Source of the DNA: Rhodanobacter sp. 7MK24
Lineage (GTDB): Bacteria > Pseudomonadota > Gammaproteobacteria > Xanthomonadales > Rhodanobacteraceae
Assembly (NCBI RefSeq): GCF_014842995.1
Contig: NZ_JACYXL010000001.1
Span: 559,183 to 623,182, forward strand
Direction of reading: 5' to 3'
Length of the DNA: 64,000 nucleotides
Numbering within the stretch: position 1 is the first letter of the stretch; each line of letters opens with the position of its first letter. Shown here one piece after another: positions 31,371 to 53,202 of the stretch. Below the pieces are notes generated by a model, which saw nothing but the letters and a program-made list of their open reading frames with translations, did no database searches and had not been told where the DNA came from. Made by a program: the position numbers and the translations under genes.

Positions 31371-31448
31371 GCAGGAGCGCACCCTGTGCGCGATTGCTTT
31401 GTGCTCCGAACGAAGCGAAAGGCAATCGCGCACAGGGTGCGCTCCTGC
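31371..31448. repeat. Palindromic repeat, family A copy 1
   Basis: Perfect 27-base arms (31371-31397 and 31422-31448) surround a 24-base centre. The end consensus GCAGGAGCGCACCCTGTGCG is shared with 49297-49373. It lies between the co-directional DUF502 and M14 genes and overlaps the end of neither (31451 is the DUF502 stop side, 3 bases away), so it may act as a terminator or mRNA end protector. Confidence 0.8.
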
Positions 31449-48639: not shown

Positions 48640-49257
48640 TCATGCCGTCCTCGGGATAAACCGCAACGCCACCGAGTTCATGCAATAGCGCAACCCCGTC
48701 GGCTGCGGCCCGTCGTCGAACACGTGGCCGAGGTGGCTGTCGCAGCCGGCGCAGCTGACGGCGATGCGCTCTATGCCGAAGCTGTCGTCGCGGGTTTCGA
48801 TCACGTTGCGTTTCGCGATGGGGCGCCAGAAGCTGGGCCAGCCGGTGCCGGAGTCGAATTCGGTGGTGGCGTTGTAGAGCGCGGTAGCGCAGGCGACGCA
48901 GCGGAAGAGGCCGGGTTGCGCGGGGCGTTCGTGCGGGCCGCTGAAGGCGCGTTCGGTGCCGGCGCGCCGCATCACGTCGAATGCCAGCGGCGACAGGCGC
49001 GATCGCCATTGCGCGTCGGTGAGCACCAGTCGCTGTACCTGCCGGACACCGAGGTCGCGGCCATCGTCGGAAAAGCATTCCAGGGCCACCTCGCCGGGCT
49101 GGTCGTGGACCAGCGCCGGCAGACCGCCCCCGGCACCGGCCGCAAGCAGGCGGGGCAGGGCGATGCTGCCGCCGACGGCGAGCAGGGCACCGCCGCCCAG
49201 CGCGGCGCGCAGGAAACGGCGGCGATCCATTGCAATGGTTTCGTCGATGCGGGACAT
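48640..49257 (-). CDS. msrB: Tat-exported peptide-methionine (R)-S-oxide reductase MsrB
   Basis: 205 residues from ATG 49257, with a strong GGAGG upstream. The N-terminus is a twin-arginine signal: DRRRFLRAALGGGALLAVGG (residues 11-30) before a hydrophobic stretch ending near residue 42. The MsrB domain has two zinc pairs (Cys120-Cys123 and Cys169-Cys172), GTGWPSF at 137-143, SHLGHVF and catalytic Cys192 in RYCMNS. It should reduce the R form of methionine sulfoxide in periplasmic proteins. The dipZ gene lies upstream on the same strand and could supply electrons. A family A palindrome lies between the two genes. I see no sigma-F-type promoter of its own. Confidence 0.93.
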   Translation of the reverse strand: MSRIDETIAMDRRRFLRAALGGGALLAVGGSIALPRLLAAGAGGGLPALVHDQPGEVALECFSDDGRDLGVRQVQRLVLTDAQWRSRLSPLAFDVMRRAGTERAFSGPHERPAQPGLFRCVACATALYNATTEFDSGTGWPSFWRPIAKRNVIETRDDSFGIERIAVSCAGCDSHLGHVFDDGPQPTGLRYCMNSVALRFIPRTA

Positions 49258-49296
49258 GGCGACCTCCGATGACGCGAGTGCGGATGGAAGATCCCG

Positions 49297-49373
49297 GTAG
49301 GAGCGCACCTTGTGCGCGATTGCCTTGTGCTTTGATCAAGGCAGAAGCATTCGCGCACAAGGTGCGCTCCTGC
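49297..49373. repeat. Palindromic repeat, family A copy 2
   Basis: Perfect 21-base arms (49299-49319 and 49351-49371) flank a centre containing GCCTTG/CAAGGC (49322-49327 with 49337-49342). The consensus AGGAGCGCACCYTGTGCGCG is shared with the element at 31371. It sits in the 126-base gap between dipZ and msrB, where it could attenuate or process the transcript. Confidence 0.8.
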
Positions 49374-49383
49374 CGGATGTGGT

Positions 49384-51111
49384 TCAGCCGAAGGTGAAGG
49401 CGTAGGCGTGTATGCCGGGGTCGAGGAAGGTGATGGTGAACGTGCGTTCGCCGTTGCCGTGCGCCTGGCGCACCAGCTGGTACAGGCGCTGTTCGGTGAC
49501 GGTGCCGTTGCCTTGCGCATCGGTGTCCATGCCGTGGTCGGCGCCGGGTGCCTGGCCGTCGAGCGTGATGCGGAAACGAACCGGCCTGCCGTCCTTGCCG
49601 GGGCCGAGCACGAGGTGCAGGTCGCGGCCGCGGAAGCGGTAGGTGATGGAGCCGTCCGTCATGTCCGATGTGGCGCTCTGCGGCTGCACGACCCAGCGGC
49701 CGGCGAGCGCCCACTGGTTGGCGGCGAGTTGCGCGGGCGTGCGGTAATCGTAGGCCTCGTCGTGCGCGACCTGGCCGCTGGCGAAGTTCTCGGAGCGCGC
49801 GTAGCCCACGTAGGTTTCCGGCGAGCGGTCGTCGTCGTTCGAGATGGCCGCTTCCGCACCTTTCGCACCGGGCTGCACGTAGCCGGCGGGCAGATTGGTG
49901 TTGCCGGCTTCGGCGAGCAGTTGGCGGATCACGTCCTCGTCTTCGGCGTAACCGCCTTCGCCGAAGCTGTGGTGGCGGATGCGACCCCGCGTATCGATGA
50001 AGTATTCCGCCGGCCAGTATTCGTTGTTGAAGCCCTGCCAGATCGCGTAGTCGGAATCCAGCGCCACCGGGTAGCGGACGCCAAGCCGTTGCACGGCGGC
50101 CTGCACGTTGGCCGGATCCTTCTCGAAAGCGAATTCGGGCGAGTGCACGCCGATCACCACCAGGCCGTGATCCTTGTACTTGTCGTACCAGGCTTCGACG
50201 TAGGGCAGCGAGCGCAGGCAGTTGATGCAGGAATAGGTCCAGAAATCCACCAGCACCACCTTGCCGTGCAATGCGGCGGGCGTGAGCCGTTTGCTGTTGA
50301 TCCACCCGGTGGCGCCGGTGAGCGAGGGCAAGCTGCCTTCCACCGGCAATGCCTCGCCGGGCTTGGTCGCAGGCGAGGCTGCGGCGGCGGGCATCGGCTG
50401 CACGGCGGCGATCAGTTTCTGCTCGAGGCCATTCGTGCTGGCCAGGGAAACGCGGGTGAGCAGGCCCGTGTCCGCGCCCATCGCGATGGCACCCACACCG
50501 GCCAGTACCAGTGCGCCCAGCGCACGGCGTACCCACTCGCCCGCACCCAGCGAGCGCTTCATCAGCGCGAACACCCGGCCGCCCACGGCCAGGGCCAGGG
50601 CCAGCGAAGTGGCGGCGCCCAGCGCGTAGGTGAGCAGCAACAAGGTGGTGGTGACGCTGGCGCCCTTGAGCGCCGCGCCGGTCAGCAGCAGGCCGAGGAT
50701 GGGCCCTGCGCAGGGCGCCCACAGCAGGCCGGTGGCGATGCCCAGGCCTACGGAACCCCAGATCGATCCGTTGTCATCGTCGGTGCGTTGAGAGAGCTTG
50801 TTGCCCAGAGCCACGAATGGCCGCGTCAACCACTCCGCGACATGCGTGGAAAGCAGGGTCAGGCCAAGCAGGGCCAGCACCACCAGGGCCACCGCGCGGC
50901 CGTACTGGTTGGCGTGCACCGCCCAGCCGCCACCCACGGCAGCCAGCGTGGCTACCAGCGCAAACGTAAGCGCCATGCCGATCAGCATCGGCAGGCCGCT
51001 CTTCAGGAACGGACGGTCGGCGCGCGCGAACACGAAGGGCAGCACCGGCAGGATGCAGGGGCTGAGGATGGTCAGCGCGCCGCCGAGGTAGGCAAGGATC
51101 AGCAGGAGCAT
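49384..51111 (-). CDS. DipZ-type thiol:disulfide protein: CcdA domain, thioredoxin-like domain and C-terminal beta domain
   Basis: 575 residues from ATG 51111. Residues 1-225 are a CcdA/DsbD-beta-like membrane domain with six to eight helices and the redox pair Cys19 (SPCILP) and Cys134 (WAPCAGP). Residues about 255-420 are a thioredoxin-like domain with Cys295-x-x-Cys298 (YSCINCLR). Residues about 430-575 resemble the carbohydrate-binding-like module at the end of mycobacterial DipZ. Such proteins carry electrons from cytoplasmic thioredoxin across the membrane to periplasmic targets. A GTAACC-N16-CGAA site lies directly upstream and msrB downstream, so its client is probably MsrB. The longer frame upstream of 51111 would include the promoter and is rejected. 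Confidence 0.92.
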   Translation of the reverse strand: MLLLILAYLGGALTILSPCILPVLPFVFARADRPFLKSGLPMLIGMALTFALVATLAAVGGGWAVHANQYGRAVALVVLALLGLTLLSTHVAEWLTRPFVALGNKLSQRTDDDNGSIWGSVGLGIATGLLWAPCAGPILGLLLTGAALKGASVTTTLLLLTYALGAATSLALALAVGGRVFALMKRSLGAGEWVRRALGALVLAGVGAIAMGADTGLLTRVSLASTNGLEQKLIAAVQPMPAAAASPATKPGEALPVEGSLPSLTGATGWINSKRLTPAALHGKVVLVDFWTYSCINCLRSLPYVEAWYDKYKDHGLVVIGVHSPEFAFEKDPANVQAAVQRLGVRYPVALDSDYAIWQGFNNEYWPAEYFIDTRGRIRHHSFGEGGYAEDEDVIRQLLAEAGNTNLPAGYVQPGAKGAEAAISNDDDRSPETYVGYARSENFASGQVAHDEAYDYRTPAQLAANQWALAGRWVVQPQSATSDMTDGSITYRFRGRDLHLVLGPGKDGRPVRFRITLDGQAPGADHGMDTDAQGNGTVTEQRLYQLVRQAHGNGERTFTITFLDPGIHAYAFTFG

Positions 51112-51142
51112 GGTGGTGGTCCGTTGGGGTGTGTGCCGGTGA

Positions 51143-51168
51143 TTCGCTGCCACGTCGCGGATGGTTAC
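51143..51168 (-). promoter_or_regulatory. SigF-type promoter of the dipZ-msrB transcription unit
   Basis: On the minus strand GTAACC (51168-51163), 16 bases, then CGAA (51146-51143). This is the exact -35/-10 pattern I know for Caulobacter SigF. The expected start of RNA is 20-30 bases before the dipZ ATG at 51111. Confidence 0.8.
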
Positions 51169-51182
51169 ATCCCGCATGCAAG

Positions 51183-51208
51183 GTAACCGTGACGCCCGGC
51201 GTAGCGAA
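51183..51208 (+). promoter_or_regulatory. SigF-type autoregulatory promoter of the sigF-nrsF operon
   Basis: GTAACC (51183-51188), 16 bases, CGAA (51205-51208), an exact match on the plus strand. It is back to back with the dipZ promoter, the two -35 elements being 14 bases apart. It places the RNA start after about 51213, so the sigma gene cannot start at ATG 51176. Confidence 0.8.
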
Positions 51209-51310
51209 TTGCCGGATGGAATCACCTTATGGGACGAACAACCCTTGACCGCCGATGGCACCTTGGTATGGGATGGCGGCTTCGCCCCGTCATCGGATTA
51301 CCGCGCCTCC

Positions 51311-51892
51311 GTGTCTGCCGAGCCAGCCAGCGCCAACGAACAGGCCGAGCGCCAGCGCGCCGCCTGGATGGCCGCCGCGCAGGCGGGAGACCGCCGTGCC
51401 TACGAGCGCGTGCTGGCCGATTCGGTGGCGCTGATCCGGGCAGTGGCGCGCCGCCAAGGCATGGGCGTGGATGGGCTGGACGACGTGGTGCAGGAGACCC
51501 TGCTCACCGTGCACCGCGTGCGCCACACCTACGATCCAACGCGTTCCTACGACGCCTGGCTCGGCGCCATTGCCGGGCGCCGCGCCATCGATGCGCTGCG
51601 CGGCCAGGGCCGGCGCGGCCGGCGCGAACTGCACGACGACATCGCGCTGGACCAGCACCCTGACCGTGACGACGCGAGCATGGACGCCGAACGCAACCAG
51701 CAGGCGCGGCGCCTGCGTGAGGCCATCGCACAATTGCCCCCCGGCCAGCGCGAGGCGGTGGAGCAGCTCGGCCTGCGCGAGCAGTCGCTGGCCGAGGCGG
51801 CTGCGCACACCGGCCGCAACACCGGTGCGCTGAAAGTGAACCTGCACCGCGCCCTGAAAGCCTTGCGCGACCGCCTGAACGGAGATTCCTGA
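51311..51892 (+). CDS. sigF: SigF-like ECF sigma factor
   Basis: 193 residues from GTG 51311. Region 2 includes DDVVQETLLTVHRVRHTYDPTRSYDAWLGAIAGRRAIDALR and region 4 QLPPGQREAVEQLGLREQSLAEAAAHTGRNTGALKVNLHRALKALRDRL. The upstream ATG at 51176 is in frame but lies before the predicted promoter; the GTG gives the normal length but lacks a clear ribosome-binding site, so the start is uncertain. The gene is followed after 5 bases by nrsF. Together they match the SigF/NrsF modules that respond to oxidants or heavy metals at the envelope. Its targets here are predicted from the three GTAACC-N16-CGAA sites. Confidence 0.88.
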   Translation: MSAEPASANEQAERQRAAWMAAAQAGDRRAYERVLADSVALIRAVARRQGMGVDGLDDVVQETLLTVHRVRHTYDPTRSYDAWLGAIAGRRAIDALRGQGRRGRRELHDDIALDQHPDRDDASMDAERNQQARRLREAIAQLPPGQREAVEQLGLREQSLAEAAAHTGRNTGALKVNLHRALKALRDRLNGDS

Positions 51893-51897
51893 GCACC

Positions 51898-52548
51898 ATG
51901 TCCGAGCCACGCCACCAAGCCCTGATCGACGCGCTCGGTGCCGAGCTGGTGCCGGTGCGGCGCCTGCTGCCGCCGTGGCTGCGCACCGTGGGCTGGCTGG
52001 CGCTGGTTGCGGCGTTCGCGGCGCTGCTGTTTGCGCATTATGGCGATGCACCCATGCTGCGCCGTTGGGCCGGCGCACCAGACCTCGCCTGGGCCGCGTT
52101 CGGCGCGGTGCTCACCGCGATCACGGCGGCCTGGGCGGCGTTCACGCTGGCCGTGCCGGGGCGTTCGCGCGCCTGGGCCTGGCTGCCGTTGCCGCCCGCG
52201 CTGTTGTGGATCGGCGCCAGCGGTCTGGGCTGCCTGCGCACCTGGCTGGCACCGGGCCCCAGCATCGTCACGTTGCATCAGTCCGCGGACTGCCTGGTCT
52301 TCATCATCGGCTTCTCGATTCCGTTGTCGGCGCTGCTGGTGTGGCTGTTGCGCCGCGCCTGCCCGTTGCGCCCGCTGCTGGCCGCGTTGCTGGTGGGCCT
52401 GGCCAGCGCCGCCGCTTCGGCCTGCCTGCTGGAGATCTGCCACGCCTACGATGCGGCCGCCACCGACCTGCTCACGCATGCGCTGGCGGTGGGCATCGTG
52501 GTCGCGGCGAACACGGCGATGGGCGGGCGGCTGCTGTCGCGGCATTGA
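51898..52548 (+). CDS. nrsF: NrsF (DUF1109) membrane anti-sigma factor
   Basis: 216 residues with six hydrophobic segments (about 30-48, 65-85, 93-112, 130-150, 158-178 and 192-210) and a short cytoplasmic N-terminus, the DUF1109 architecture. Five cysteines are present (112, 132, 155, 176, 181); Cys132 and Cys181 correspond closely to the two cysteines (131 and 181) reported, as I recall, as important in Caulobacter NrsF. It should hold SigF at the membrane and release it when oxidised or metal-bound. It is encoded directly after sigF. A large palindrome begins at the base after its stop. Confidence 0.9.
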   Translation: MSEPRHQALIDALGAELVPVRRLLPPWLRTVGWLALVAAFAALLFAHYGDAPMLRRWAGAPDLAWAAFGAVLTAITAAWAAFTLAVPGRSRAWAWLPLPPALLWIGASGLGCLRTWLAPGPSIVTLHQSADCLVFIIGFSIPLSALLVWLLRRACPLRPLLAALLVGLASAAASACLLEICHAYDAAATDLLTHALAVGIVVAANTAMGGRLLSRH

Positions 52549-52814
52549 GAGCCTGTTCACGATCTCCAAGTGCCCCGCGTTGCCATCGAGTGGTCGTCAG
52601 GTGGTGGCGCGTGGCGCAGCGCCTGACTGGCTGTCAGGTCAAGCCGCGCGCTGCCGCATGGCGGCCACTCGATGGCAACCCATAGGGCCGGGTCTGTTTG
52701 CCCGCATGCCGGCGTCATCACTCAGTCGTGGACGGACGTCCACTCCCTCCTTCTTCCTTGGCCTGCGCGCAAACAGCTCTCGGCGCGGGGCGCTTGGAGA
52801 TCGTGAACAGGCTC
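52549..52814. repeat. Nested palindromic element between nrsF and the Met-rich peptide gene
   Basis: Outer arms 52549-52576 and 52787-52814 (28 bases each) are inverted with one mismatch, ending in GAGCCTGTTCACGATCTCC. Inside, 52579-52593 and 52665-52679 are a perfect 15-base inverted pair; CCTGAC/GTCAGG (52622-52638) lies within it, and GTGGAC/GTCCAC (52728-52743) forms a separate hairpin. No coding frame is supported in this 266-base stretch. It fits exactly between the nrsF stop and the next SigF promoter, so it may be a non-autonomous mobile element or a structured terminator. A 3-bp TGA flank on both sides could be a target duplication but is too short to trust. Confidence 0.7.
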
Positions 52815-52818
52815 TGAT

Positions 52819-52844
52819 GTAACCGGCGGCGCGTCCGTGGCGAA
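52819..52844 (+). promoter_or_regulatory. SigF-type promoter of the Met-rich MXKDX peptide gene
   Basis: GTAACC (52819-52824), 16 bases, CGAA (52841-52844), an exact match, four bases after the large palindrome and 58 bases before the start codon. Confidence 0.8.
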
Positions 52845-52902
52845 GGGGAGGGTGGAGGTGGCGTGACCGCTTCCGTCCCTTTCCTCACTCAAGGATCCAC
52901 CC

Positions 52903-53202
52903 ATGAACACACGCACGCTTGCCGCCCTTGCGCTTTCCGTTGCGGTCGCTGCCTTCGCCGTCGCGCCCGCCTTCGCGCAGGATGCCATGCCCGCCAGTGC
53001 CGGCACGGCGATGTCGCACGACGCGATGCAATCCAAGGATGCGATGAAGGGTTCCATGAACAAGGACGACATGATGAAGAAGGACGCGATGAAGTCCGGC
53101 GCGATGAAGTCCAAGGCGATGAAGTCCGACGCCACGATGAAAAAGGACGACGCGATGAAGATGAAGCCGAGTACCGGCAATGCCATGAGCAGCGGTGGCT
53201 GA
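52903..53202 (+). CDS. Exported methionine-rich MXKDX-repeat protein (MrpX-like)
   Basis: 99 residues with AAGGA upstream. A signal peptide (RTLAALALSVAVAAFAVAPAFA) is cleaved about residue 25, leaving a 74-residue mature peptide with 14 methionines (19 percent) and 13 lysines and no cysteine, tyrosine, tryptophan or phenylalanine. Units such as KDAMK, SGAMK, SKAMK and KDDAMK repeat through residues 35-85, the pentapeptide MXKDX pattern. It is probably disordered. Similar peptides under SigF/NrsF (MrpX of Azospira) act as sacrificial scavengers of hypochlorite, being oxidised at methionine and re-reduced by a methionine sulfoxide reductase. The exact SigF-type promoter and the nearby MsrB support this; metal binding is the main alternative. 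Confidence 0.88.
   Translation: MNTRTLAALALSVAVAAFAVAPAFAQDAMPASAGTAMSHDAMQSKDAMKGSMNKDDMMKKDAMKSGAMKSKAMKSDATMKKDDAMKMKPSTGNAMSSGG

Follow-up and report, generated by a model that had tools for sequence, protein, structure and literature searches.

The closest described counterparts of the sigF-nrsF/dipZ-msrB locus of Rhodanobacter sp. 7MK24, the subject of this study, are regulons of extracytoplasmic function (ECF) sigma factors of group 16 (ECF16). In Bradyrhizobium japonicum, the ECF16 sigma factor EcfF and its DUF1109 anti-sigma factor OsrA are reported to control methionine sulfoxide (MetSO) reductases, including a periplasmic one, and a pair made of a DsbD-core protein and a membrane thioredoxin (bll1027-26) was proposed in 2012 to feed the periplasmic reductase (PMC3420878). 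Brucella BcrS/AbcS is described in connection with methionine repair linked to hypochlorous acid (HOCl), with MsrP/MsrQ as the enzymes (PMC8315932), and two perchlorate islands are reported to carry MsrA and MsrB that are predicted to be exported (PMC4623255). The sequence bound by SigF of Caulobacter is given as GTAACC-N16-CGAA (PMC3511200), and tGTAACc-N16-CGAA was proposed as the consensus of ECF group 16 (quoted in PMC3420878). The cysteines of NrsF, the anti-sigma factor, act in signalling, the important pair being C131/C181 in Caulobacter and C129/C179 in OsrA (PMC3511200, PMC3420878).

We analysed 64,000 nt of the 7MK24 genome (4.15 Mb; GCF_014842995.1, NZ_JACYXL010000001.1:559,183-623,182), hereafter the window, in which the feature under study occupies positions 48640-53202. 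Judging from its promoters, gene content and conservation, an ECF16-type SigF/NrsF pair encoded there probably controls a regulon for the repair of methionine oxidation in the periplasm. Comparisons were made across 147 Rhodanobacteraceae genomes. A close SigF orthologue (62-100% identity to the window SigF; one is split across two contigs) was found in 69 of them, called SigF+, and the other 78 are called SigF-. At the 69 loci, a site was scored if it matched at 9/10 with a 16-nt spacer (N16) and GTAAC intact, or exactly at N15-N17. Counts run over related genomes, hence they are not independent.

Promoters and genes of the locus

The features are, by window coordinates and strand:

48640..49257, minus: msrB, methionine-R-sulfoxide reductase exported by a twin-arginine type signal, with dipZ as the first gene before it; PF01641 (SelR), 149 bits
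49294..49376, no strand: inverted repeat of 30 nt resembling repetitive extragenic palindromes (REP-like), in the dipZ-msrB gap; arms 93% complementary
49384..51111, minus: dipZ, CcdA-type membrane, thioredoxin and Thioredoxin_10 domains; Pfam DsbD_TM, Redoxin, Thioredoxin_10
51143..51168, minus: candidate ECF16 promoter of dipZ-msrB; exact motif; site before dipZ or msrB in 68/69 loci, 54 exact with N16
51183..51208, plus: candidate ECF16 promoter of sigF-nrsF; exact motif; site in 69/69 loci, 54 exact
51245..51892, plus: sigF, ECF16-type sigma factor; PF04542 and PF08281 above cut-off; orthologue in 69/147 family genomes
51898..52548, plus: nrsF, membrane anti-sigma factor; PF06532, 70.5 bits (cut-off 26.8)
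52548..52815, no strand: insertion of 268 bp resembling a miniature inverted-repeat transposable element (MITE-like), with 32-nt terminal inverted repeats (97%); adjoins the nrsF stop, before the third promoter
52819..52844, plus: candidate ECF16 promoter of the Met-rich gene; exact; third site in 22/69 loci, 20 before Met-rich and 2 before DUF2282-type genes
52903..53202, plus: exported Met-rich (MXKDX-like) peptide, 99 aa; by composition, and TIGR02953 at 33 bits

A search of the window found GTAACC-N16-CGAA exactly at these three places and nowhere else in its 64 kb. All three sites are intergenic, upstream of dipZ, sigF and the Met-rich gene, just where the original prediction had put them; the mean expected count is 0.04, and three or more sites occurred in 0/100 shuffles. 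The motif is identical to the published promoter of ECF16 (SigF/NrsF) systems, and the copy before sigF-nrsF would amount to autoregulation. The regulator pair itself fits the ECF16 group, with sigma regions 2 and 4, an adjacent PF06532 gene, conserved NrsF cysteines and a putative promoter before its own operon. nrsF begins 5 bp downstream of sigF, whose start is uncertain (in-frame TTG at 51245 or GTG at 51311). C112 and C132 of NrsF are kept in 68/68 orthologues and C181 in 58/68; C132/C181 were matched to the Caulobacter and OsrA pairs named above by position, not by aligning those proteins.

On the other strand, the site lies 32 bp before the dipZ ATG. The dipZ product combines a CcdA/DsbD_TM membrane part (Cys 19/134), a thioredoxin CxxC (CINC at 295/298) and a C-terminal Thioredoxin_10 domain, and its best solved relatives are DipZ structures 5cyy/2hyx. 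MsrB scores 166 bits with TIGR00357 (cut-off 113) and has zinc-type Cys 120/123/169/172 and a catalytic-type C192. It carries an RRRFL twin-arginine stretch, and a twin-Arg pattern is found in 67/67 orthologues, the pattern being lenient and liable to read upstream codons. The Pfam and TIGR scores and RRRFL thus confirm the CcdA-thioredoxin protein and the MsrB of twin-arginine translocation (Tat) type that had been predicted. The REP-like pair between the two genes could affect read-through to msrB; a related pair lies at 31371-31448, both being paired repeats GTAGGAGCGCACC..GCGCGA.

The third site stands 59 bp before the start of the Met-rich gene, whose product has a likely signal peptide (judged by reading) and, in the 73 residues that follow it, 14 Met. 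Composition and exact site fit the predicted exported MXKDX peptide behind a SigF-type promoter, but its 33 bits with TIGR02953 are under the curated cut-off of 41. In the window genome and in genome G022, this site is displaced outward by about 270 bp relative to the other congeners having one. The offset implies the MITE-like element in G022; by spacing, it is absent from the other congeners with a third site.

Conservation and candidate regulon members elsewhere in the genome

The msrB/dipZ-sigF-nrsF arrangement is conserved in Rhodanobacteraceae: among the 69 loci, msrB is found in 67, dipZ in 62 (one cut by a contig end) and the sigF site in 69. The gene-set conservation on which the original prediction depended was therefore seen for the sigF-nrsF/dipZ-msrB pair, but the Met-rich gene has its site in only 20/69 loci. 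Seven exact sites outside the locus were read. Three of them precede the genes of an exported MsrA, a catalase-family open reading frame (ORF) and an exported 349-aa protein, and four, judged by reading, have no plausible target. Sequence comparison supports six candidate sites in the window genome, namely the three local ones and these three, so that the regulon, first presented as compact, would extend to three places outside the locus.

The msrA gene, of exported lipoprotein type, lies 30 bp behind an exact site, and its product (PF01625, 186 bits; TIGR00401, 159 bits) has a PMSR domain with a GCFWG motif. From 144 genomes with a match, 90 were examined (67 SigF+, 23 SigF-); the 54 left out comprise G069 and G128, which are SigF+ but lack a close orthologue, and 52 SigF- genomes with weaker matches. 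The site is exact in 64/67 SigF+ genomes (67/67 at ≥9/10) and in 0/23 SigF- genomes, one of which has it at 9/10, 428 bp from the match (Fisher 2e-18, kinship ignored). A lenient lipobox pattern occurs in 55/62 SigF+ orthologues. Because no Cys follows GCFWG in 81/81 orthologues with a placeable start (9 of the 90 were not placeable), the exported MsrA likely needs an external reductant. By these comparisons it is a better-tested candidate member of the regulon than MsrB. MsrA reduces the S- and MsrB the R-form of methionine sulfoxide, with thioredoxin-type donors. Together they would cover both stereoisomers; with MsrB as the only enzyme, the S-sulfoxide would not be repaired. The MsrB-only cycle first envisaged was rejected once the exported MsrA site had been found. 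The proposal that MsrB and DipZ stand in place of MsrP holds in that PF00174 (MsrP-type) has no match in the window genome, by a search that was positive in 9/14 genomes (control), but MsrB would not be alone, since MsrA joins the predicted regulon.

The catalase-family ORF (PF00199), with a membrane-anchor-like N-terminus, also follows an exact site. It was compared in 34 SigF+ and 16 SigF- genomes, of 74 with a match. Among the first 30 orthologues, the site is exact in 21, at ≥9/10 with N16 in 24, and exact at N15 in two more; it is exact in 4/4 further SigF+ orthologues and reaches 9/10 in 0/16 SigF- genomes. The 349-aa exported protein (locus L303, G000:C11:386366-387412), without any Pfam or NCBIfam match, is encoded in 17/147 genomes, all SigF+, behind a conserved ECF16 site (8/17 exact with N16, one at 9/10, three exact at N15, four at 9/10 with N15, one none).

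Among the 78 SigF- genomes, 28 have some DipZ match, 5 of them full-length, and no GTAAC-N-N15-17-CGAA site was found in the five loci with full-length DipZ. In the SigF- genus g26 (L305 in G072, L306 in G057), dipZ lies beside an exported msrA. There, 9 kb contain no GTAAC-type ECF16 site near the pair, and the dipZ-msrA pairing therefore exists without SigF control. Other arrangements were seen in a Lysobacterales metagenome-assembled genome (MAG; L367), with dipZ, msrB and msrA side by side and divergent from sigF-nrsF, in an Acidobacteria-labelled record (L384), where msrB-msrA adjoins sigF-nrsF, and in Rhizobium and Sphingomonadales MAGs (L385, L386), with msrA and msrB within 3 kb.

That all SigF-lacking relatives are devoid of any ECF16 was rejected, at least 10/78 having a divergent pair. 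In genera g11/g12 (L142-L150), divergent ECF16/NrsF pairs occur with an identical promoter before DUF2282-type genes, as read after the site in L143, L145 and L150 (Pfam for L143), and neither the msrA genes nor the tested catalase-family genes of these genera have a site. By reading, DUF692-like genes also follow this promoter, so that the family would include a regulon resembling that of Caulobacter as well, and G095 holds a divergent ECF16 pair besides the close one.

In a SigF search of relatives' contigs, the best 80 of at least 477 relatives were kept. Among these 80, Rhodanobacter sp. DHB23 comes closest (SigF 88%), most named relatives with the locus belong to Rhodanobacter, Dyella, Frateuria and Fulvimonas, and 7 of the 8 weakest loci are labelled alphaproteobacterial, as horizontal transfer might produce. 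Beyond the family, the close NrsF type is rare, found in 3/274 class genomes, own genome included (E <= 1e-15, where divergent types would escape).

Possibly exchangeable modules in relatives

Gene content behind the promoter varies among the SigF+ genomes. In six of them (G003, G024, G029, G045, G058, G083), msrB directly follows the site and the locus has no DipZ; the rest of these genomes was not searched for it. A cytochrome b561 gene followed by that of an exported PF00174 protein is found in 6/6 of the genomes with DipZ-less loci versus 9/63 other genomes, among which G134 is counted (Fisher 4e-5, from only two genera and with DipZ sought only in the locus in the six). Before b561, these 15 pairs have an exact site in 11 cases, a 9/10 site in one and none in the stretch examined in three. 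The broader idea that MsrP is replaced throughout the family was rejected: 34/69 SigF+ genomes have some PF00174 match, 15 of them b561-linked. In six genomes (L276, L277, L279, L290, L292, L309), genes for CcdA and an exported thioredoxin diverge, each with its own site (Pfam for L279 only), an analogue of Bradyrhizobium bll1027-26. Finally, in G024 and G128 the place of the Met-rich gene behind the same promoter is taken by a DUF2282-type gene (Pfam for G128).

A tentative reading, possible but on the doubtful side, treats the methionine economy as modular: a single ECF16 factor would govern it, and both the source of electrons and the sink would be swapped behind the same promoter. Electrons from cytoplasmic thiols would reach MsrA/MsrB through DipZ, or through a divergently encoded pair of CcdA and exported thioredoxin; alternatively, they would pass through cytochrome b561 with a Tat-type PF00174 protein. 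Either the Met-rich peptide or, encoded in its slot, a bufferin-type DUF2282 peptide would act as the sink. If this were true, thiol- versus respiratory-chain-driven repair and Met versus Cys sinks would form an evolvable switch under fixed regulation. The family offers genomes that differ naturally in their electron source and sink peptide and have the regulator in common.

Exact sites were also seen before cutA-dsbD (L420, G045; no DipZ at the locus) and before moeA (L400/L409; G003, G045). The genes were named by reading and were not used as support; they would fit a supply of reductant and of molybdenum cofactor.

Proposed mechanism, rival explanations and known systems

We propose that an oxidant in the envelope would modify the NrsF cysteines and release SigF. 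The freed sigma factor would then direct transcription of sigF-nrsF, dipZ-msrB, the Met-rich gene, msrA, the catalase-family gene and the gene of the 349-aa exported protein. The Met-rich peptide would serve as a sacrificial pool absorbing the oxidant, and MsrA (S-sulfoxide) and MsrB (R-sulfoxide) would reduce it along with other envelope proteins. CcdA/DsbD proteins carry electrons across the membrane. In DipZ, electrons from cytoplasmic thiols would pass to the CcdA part, on to the thioredoxin part, and recharge the Msr enzymes.

Several observations weigh against such a regulon. DipZ is absent from the sigF locus in 7/69 genomes, one of which (G134) has dipZ elsewhere under its own site (L272). 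Among the 23 SigF- genomes of the msrA comparison, 9 have a divergent ECF16 pair (32-37% SigF identity) and the same promoter, yet their msrA is siteless, and the catalase-family site was not found in G003, G029 and G045. Of the candidate members, the Met-rich gene is conserved least, given the 20/69 loci cited above. Eleven further loci (Dyella-like, e.g. L084, L102, L126) have a gene for an exported MKSD-repeat protein ~0.3-0.6 kb after nrsF without a called ECF16 site (best 7-9/10, irregular spacing), so that in these relatives the peptide may lie outside the regulon. That a Met-rich gene always belongs to the regulon was rejected, 11/31 loci with such a gene after nrsF having no called site. 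Lastly, the whole genome contains 10 exact GTAACC-N16-CGAA sites against 5 for the reversed control pattern, so the motif is not specific by itself; the assumption that it is was rejected, 4/10 exact genome sites (L007-L010) having no supportable target, judged by reading.

The last count would suit an explanation by chance or functionless inheritance of the promoter matches, the genes being controlled otherwise. Specificity comes from conservation, however. GTAACC-N16-CGAATA, whose TA extension was chosen after inspection of the msrA sites, has 114 matches versus 5 for the control in the 69 SigF+ genomes (56/69 have a match; gene context was read for part of those outside the known targets), and 6 versus 6 in the 78 SigF- genomes, where two of the six sit before divergent ECF16 genes (G143, G010). 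With msrA sites at 64/67 versus 0/23, chance is an extremely improbable account. The genome-wide motif search called for at the outset thus gave a mixed answer: three local sites and three others are backed by conservation, but they stand in chance-level company. A bystander role for the Met-rich peptide, without part in repair, only sigF-nrsF and dipZ-msrB mattering, deserves more credit and is still rather unlikely. It would explain the 20/69 loci and the 11 siteless MKSD-repeat genes; against it, the third site, where called, is exact in 21/22 loci, an MXKDX-like gene of G052 stands behind an exact site outside the sigF locus, and related peptides of Brucella and Azospira are reported to belong to SigF regulons (PMC8315932, PMC4623255).

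A metal-responsive regulon is distinctly unlikely. In that case, the Met-rich peptide would be a metal binder, and Msr and DipZ would be present because metals oxidise envelope proteins. Six supported targets without a metal transporter or bufferin speak against it (the four unsupported sites were read only, without family models), as do the other well-conserved targets, which are sulfoxide reductases, thiol reductants and a catalase-family protein. The idea draws on Caulobacter SigF/NrsF, which is reported to answer Cr and Cd (PMC3511200), on the replacement of the Met-rich gene by a DUF2282-type gene behind the same promoter in G128 and G024, and on the same promoter before DUF2282-type genes at the divergent ECF16 pairs of g11/g12 (three loci read, Pfam for one). 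Periplasmic methionine repair under SigF/NrsF is the reading we retain. It would extend the ECF16 system to a family of Gammaproteobacteria equipped with a complete repair kit that is driven by thiols and replaces MsrP, may help explain envelope-oxidant tolerance of soil Rhodanobacter and Dyella, and could be tested by one RNA-seq experiment.

In the literature searched, with subscription papers and preprints outside its coverage, we found neither MsrA, MsrB, DipZ and a Met-rich peptide in one ECF16 regulon nor a Rhodanobacter Msr under a sigma factor; DipZ and Msr together gave a single match, on Salmonella CpxR and chlorhexidine. The MsrB-DipZ route had been thought new. Its full combination was indeed not found described, but electron flow from CcdA/DsbD through thioredoxin to Msr under ECF16 control had already been proposed for EcfF/OsrA (PMC3420878). 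The Rhodanobacter locus shares with that system an ECF16 and DUF1109 pair, GTAAC-type promoters, an exported MetSO reductase and a CcdA/thioredoxin supply (expression predicted). Unlike the alphaproteobacterium, which has two separate electron carriers, it has a single DipZ, and the main text of that paper nowhere uses the term "methionine-rich" (PMC3420878). With Brucella BcrS/AbcS and BcrXQP, it shares the ECF16 pair and the promoter, to which its candidate MXKDX-like peptide and a predicted methionine repair linked to HOCl may be added, but repair is by MsrP/MsrQ there and would be by MsrA, MsrB and DipZ in Rhodanobacter (PMC8315932). The Azospira SigF/NrsF-MrpX-YedYZ system likewise has SigF/NrsF, a Met-rich peptide and periplasmic methionine cycling, the last of which is predicted in Rhodanobacter; its core reductase is YedYZ, and "thioredoxin" is absent from the main text of the report (PMC4623255). 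The MsrP/MsrQ (YedYZ) of the MrpX/BcrX type was not found in 7MK24, whose genome has no PF00174 match.

In Neisseria, the sigma group and the anti-sigma factor are different ones, and MsrAB is a fusion protein that includes a thioredoxin domain. What its Ecf/sigmaE-msrAB system has in common with the present one is ECF control of MetSO reductase genes and an anti-sigma factor (PMC3420878, PMC3511200, PMC2893595). Caulobacter SigF/NrsF has the identical GTAACC-N16-CGAA and an NrsF with two important Cys, but its regulon responds to chromium and cadmium, and msrA homologues are reported as unchanged in its arrays (PMC3511200). The streptococcal CcdA/Etrx-MsrAB systems also join extracytoplasmic thioredoxin-fold partners of MsrAB to CcdA; they are Gram-positive, and no ECF16 control was seen in the entries listed for them (PMC3914529, PMC7034828). 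Set against these systems, whose parts were already known, what appears new in Rhodanobacter is the predicted gathering of MsrA, MsrB, DipZ and a bait peptide under one ECF16 factor, together with the apparently swappable modules of its relatives.

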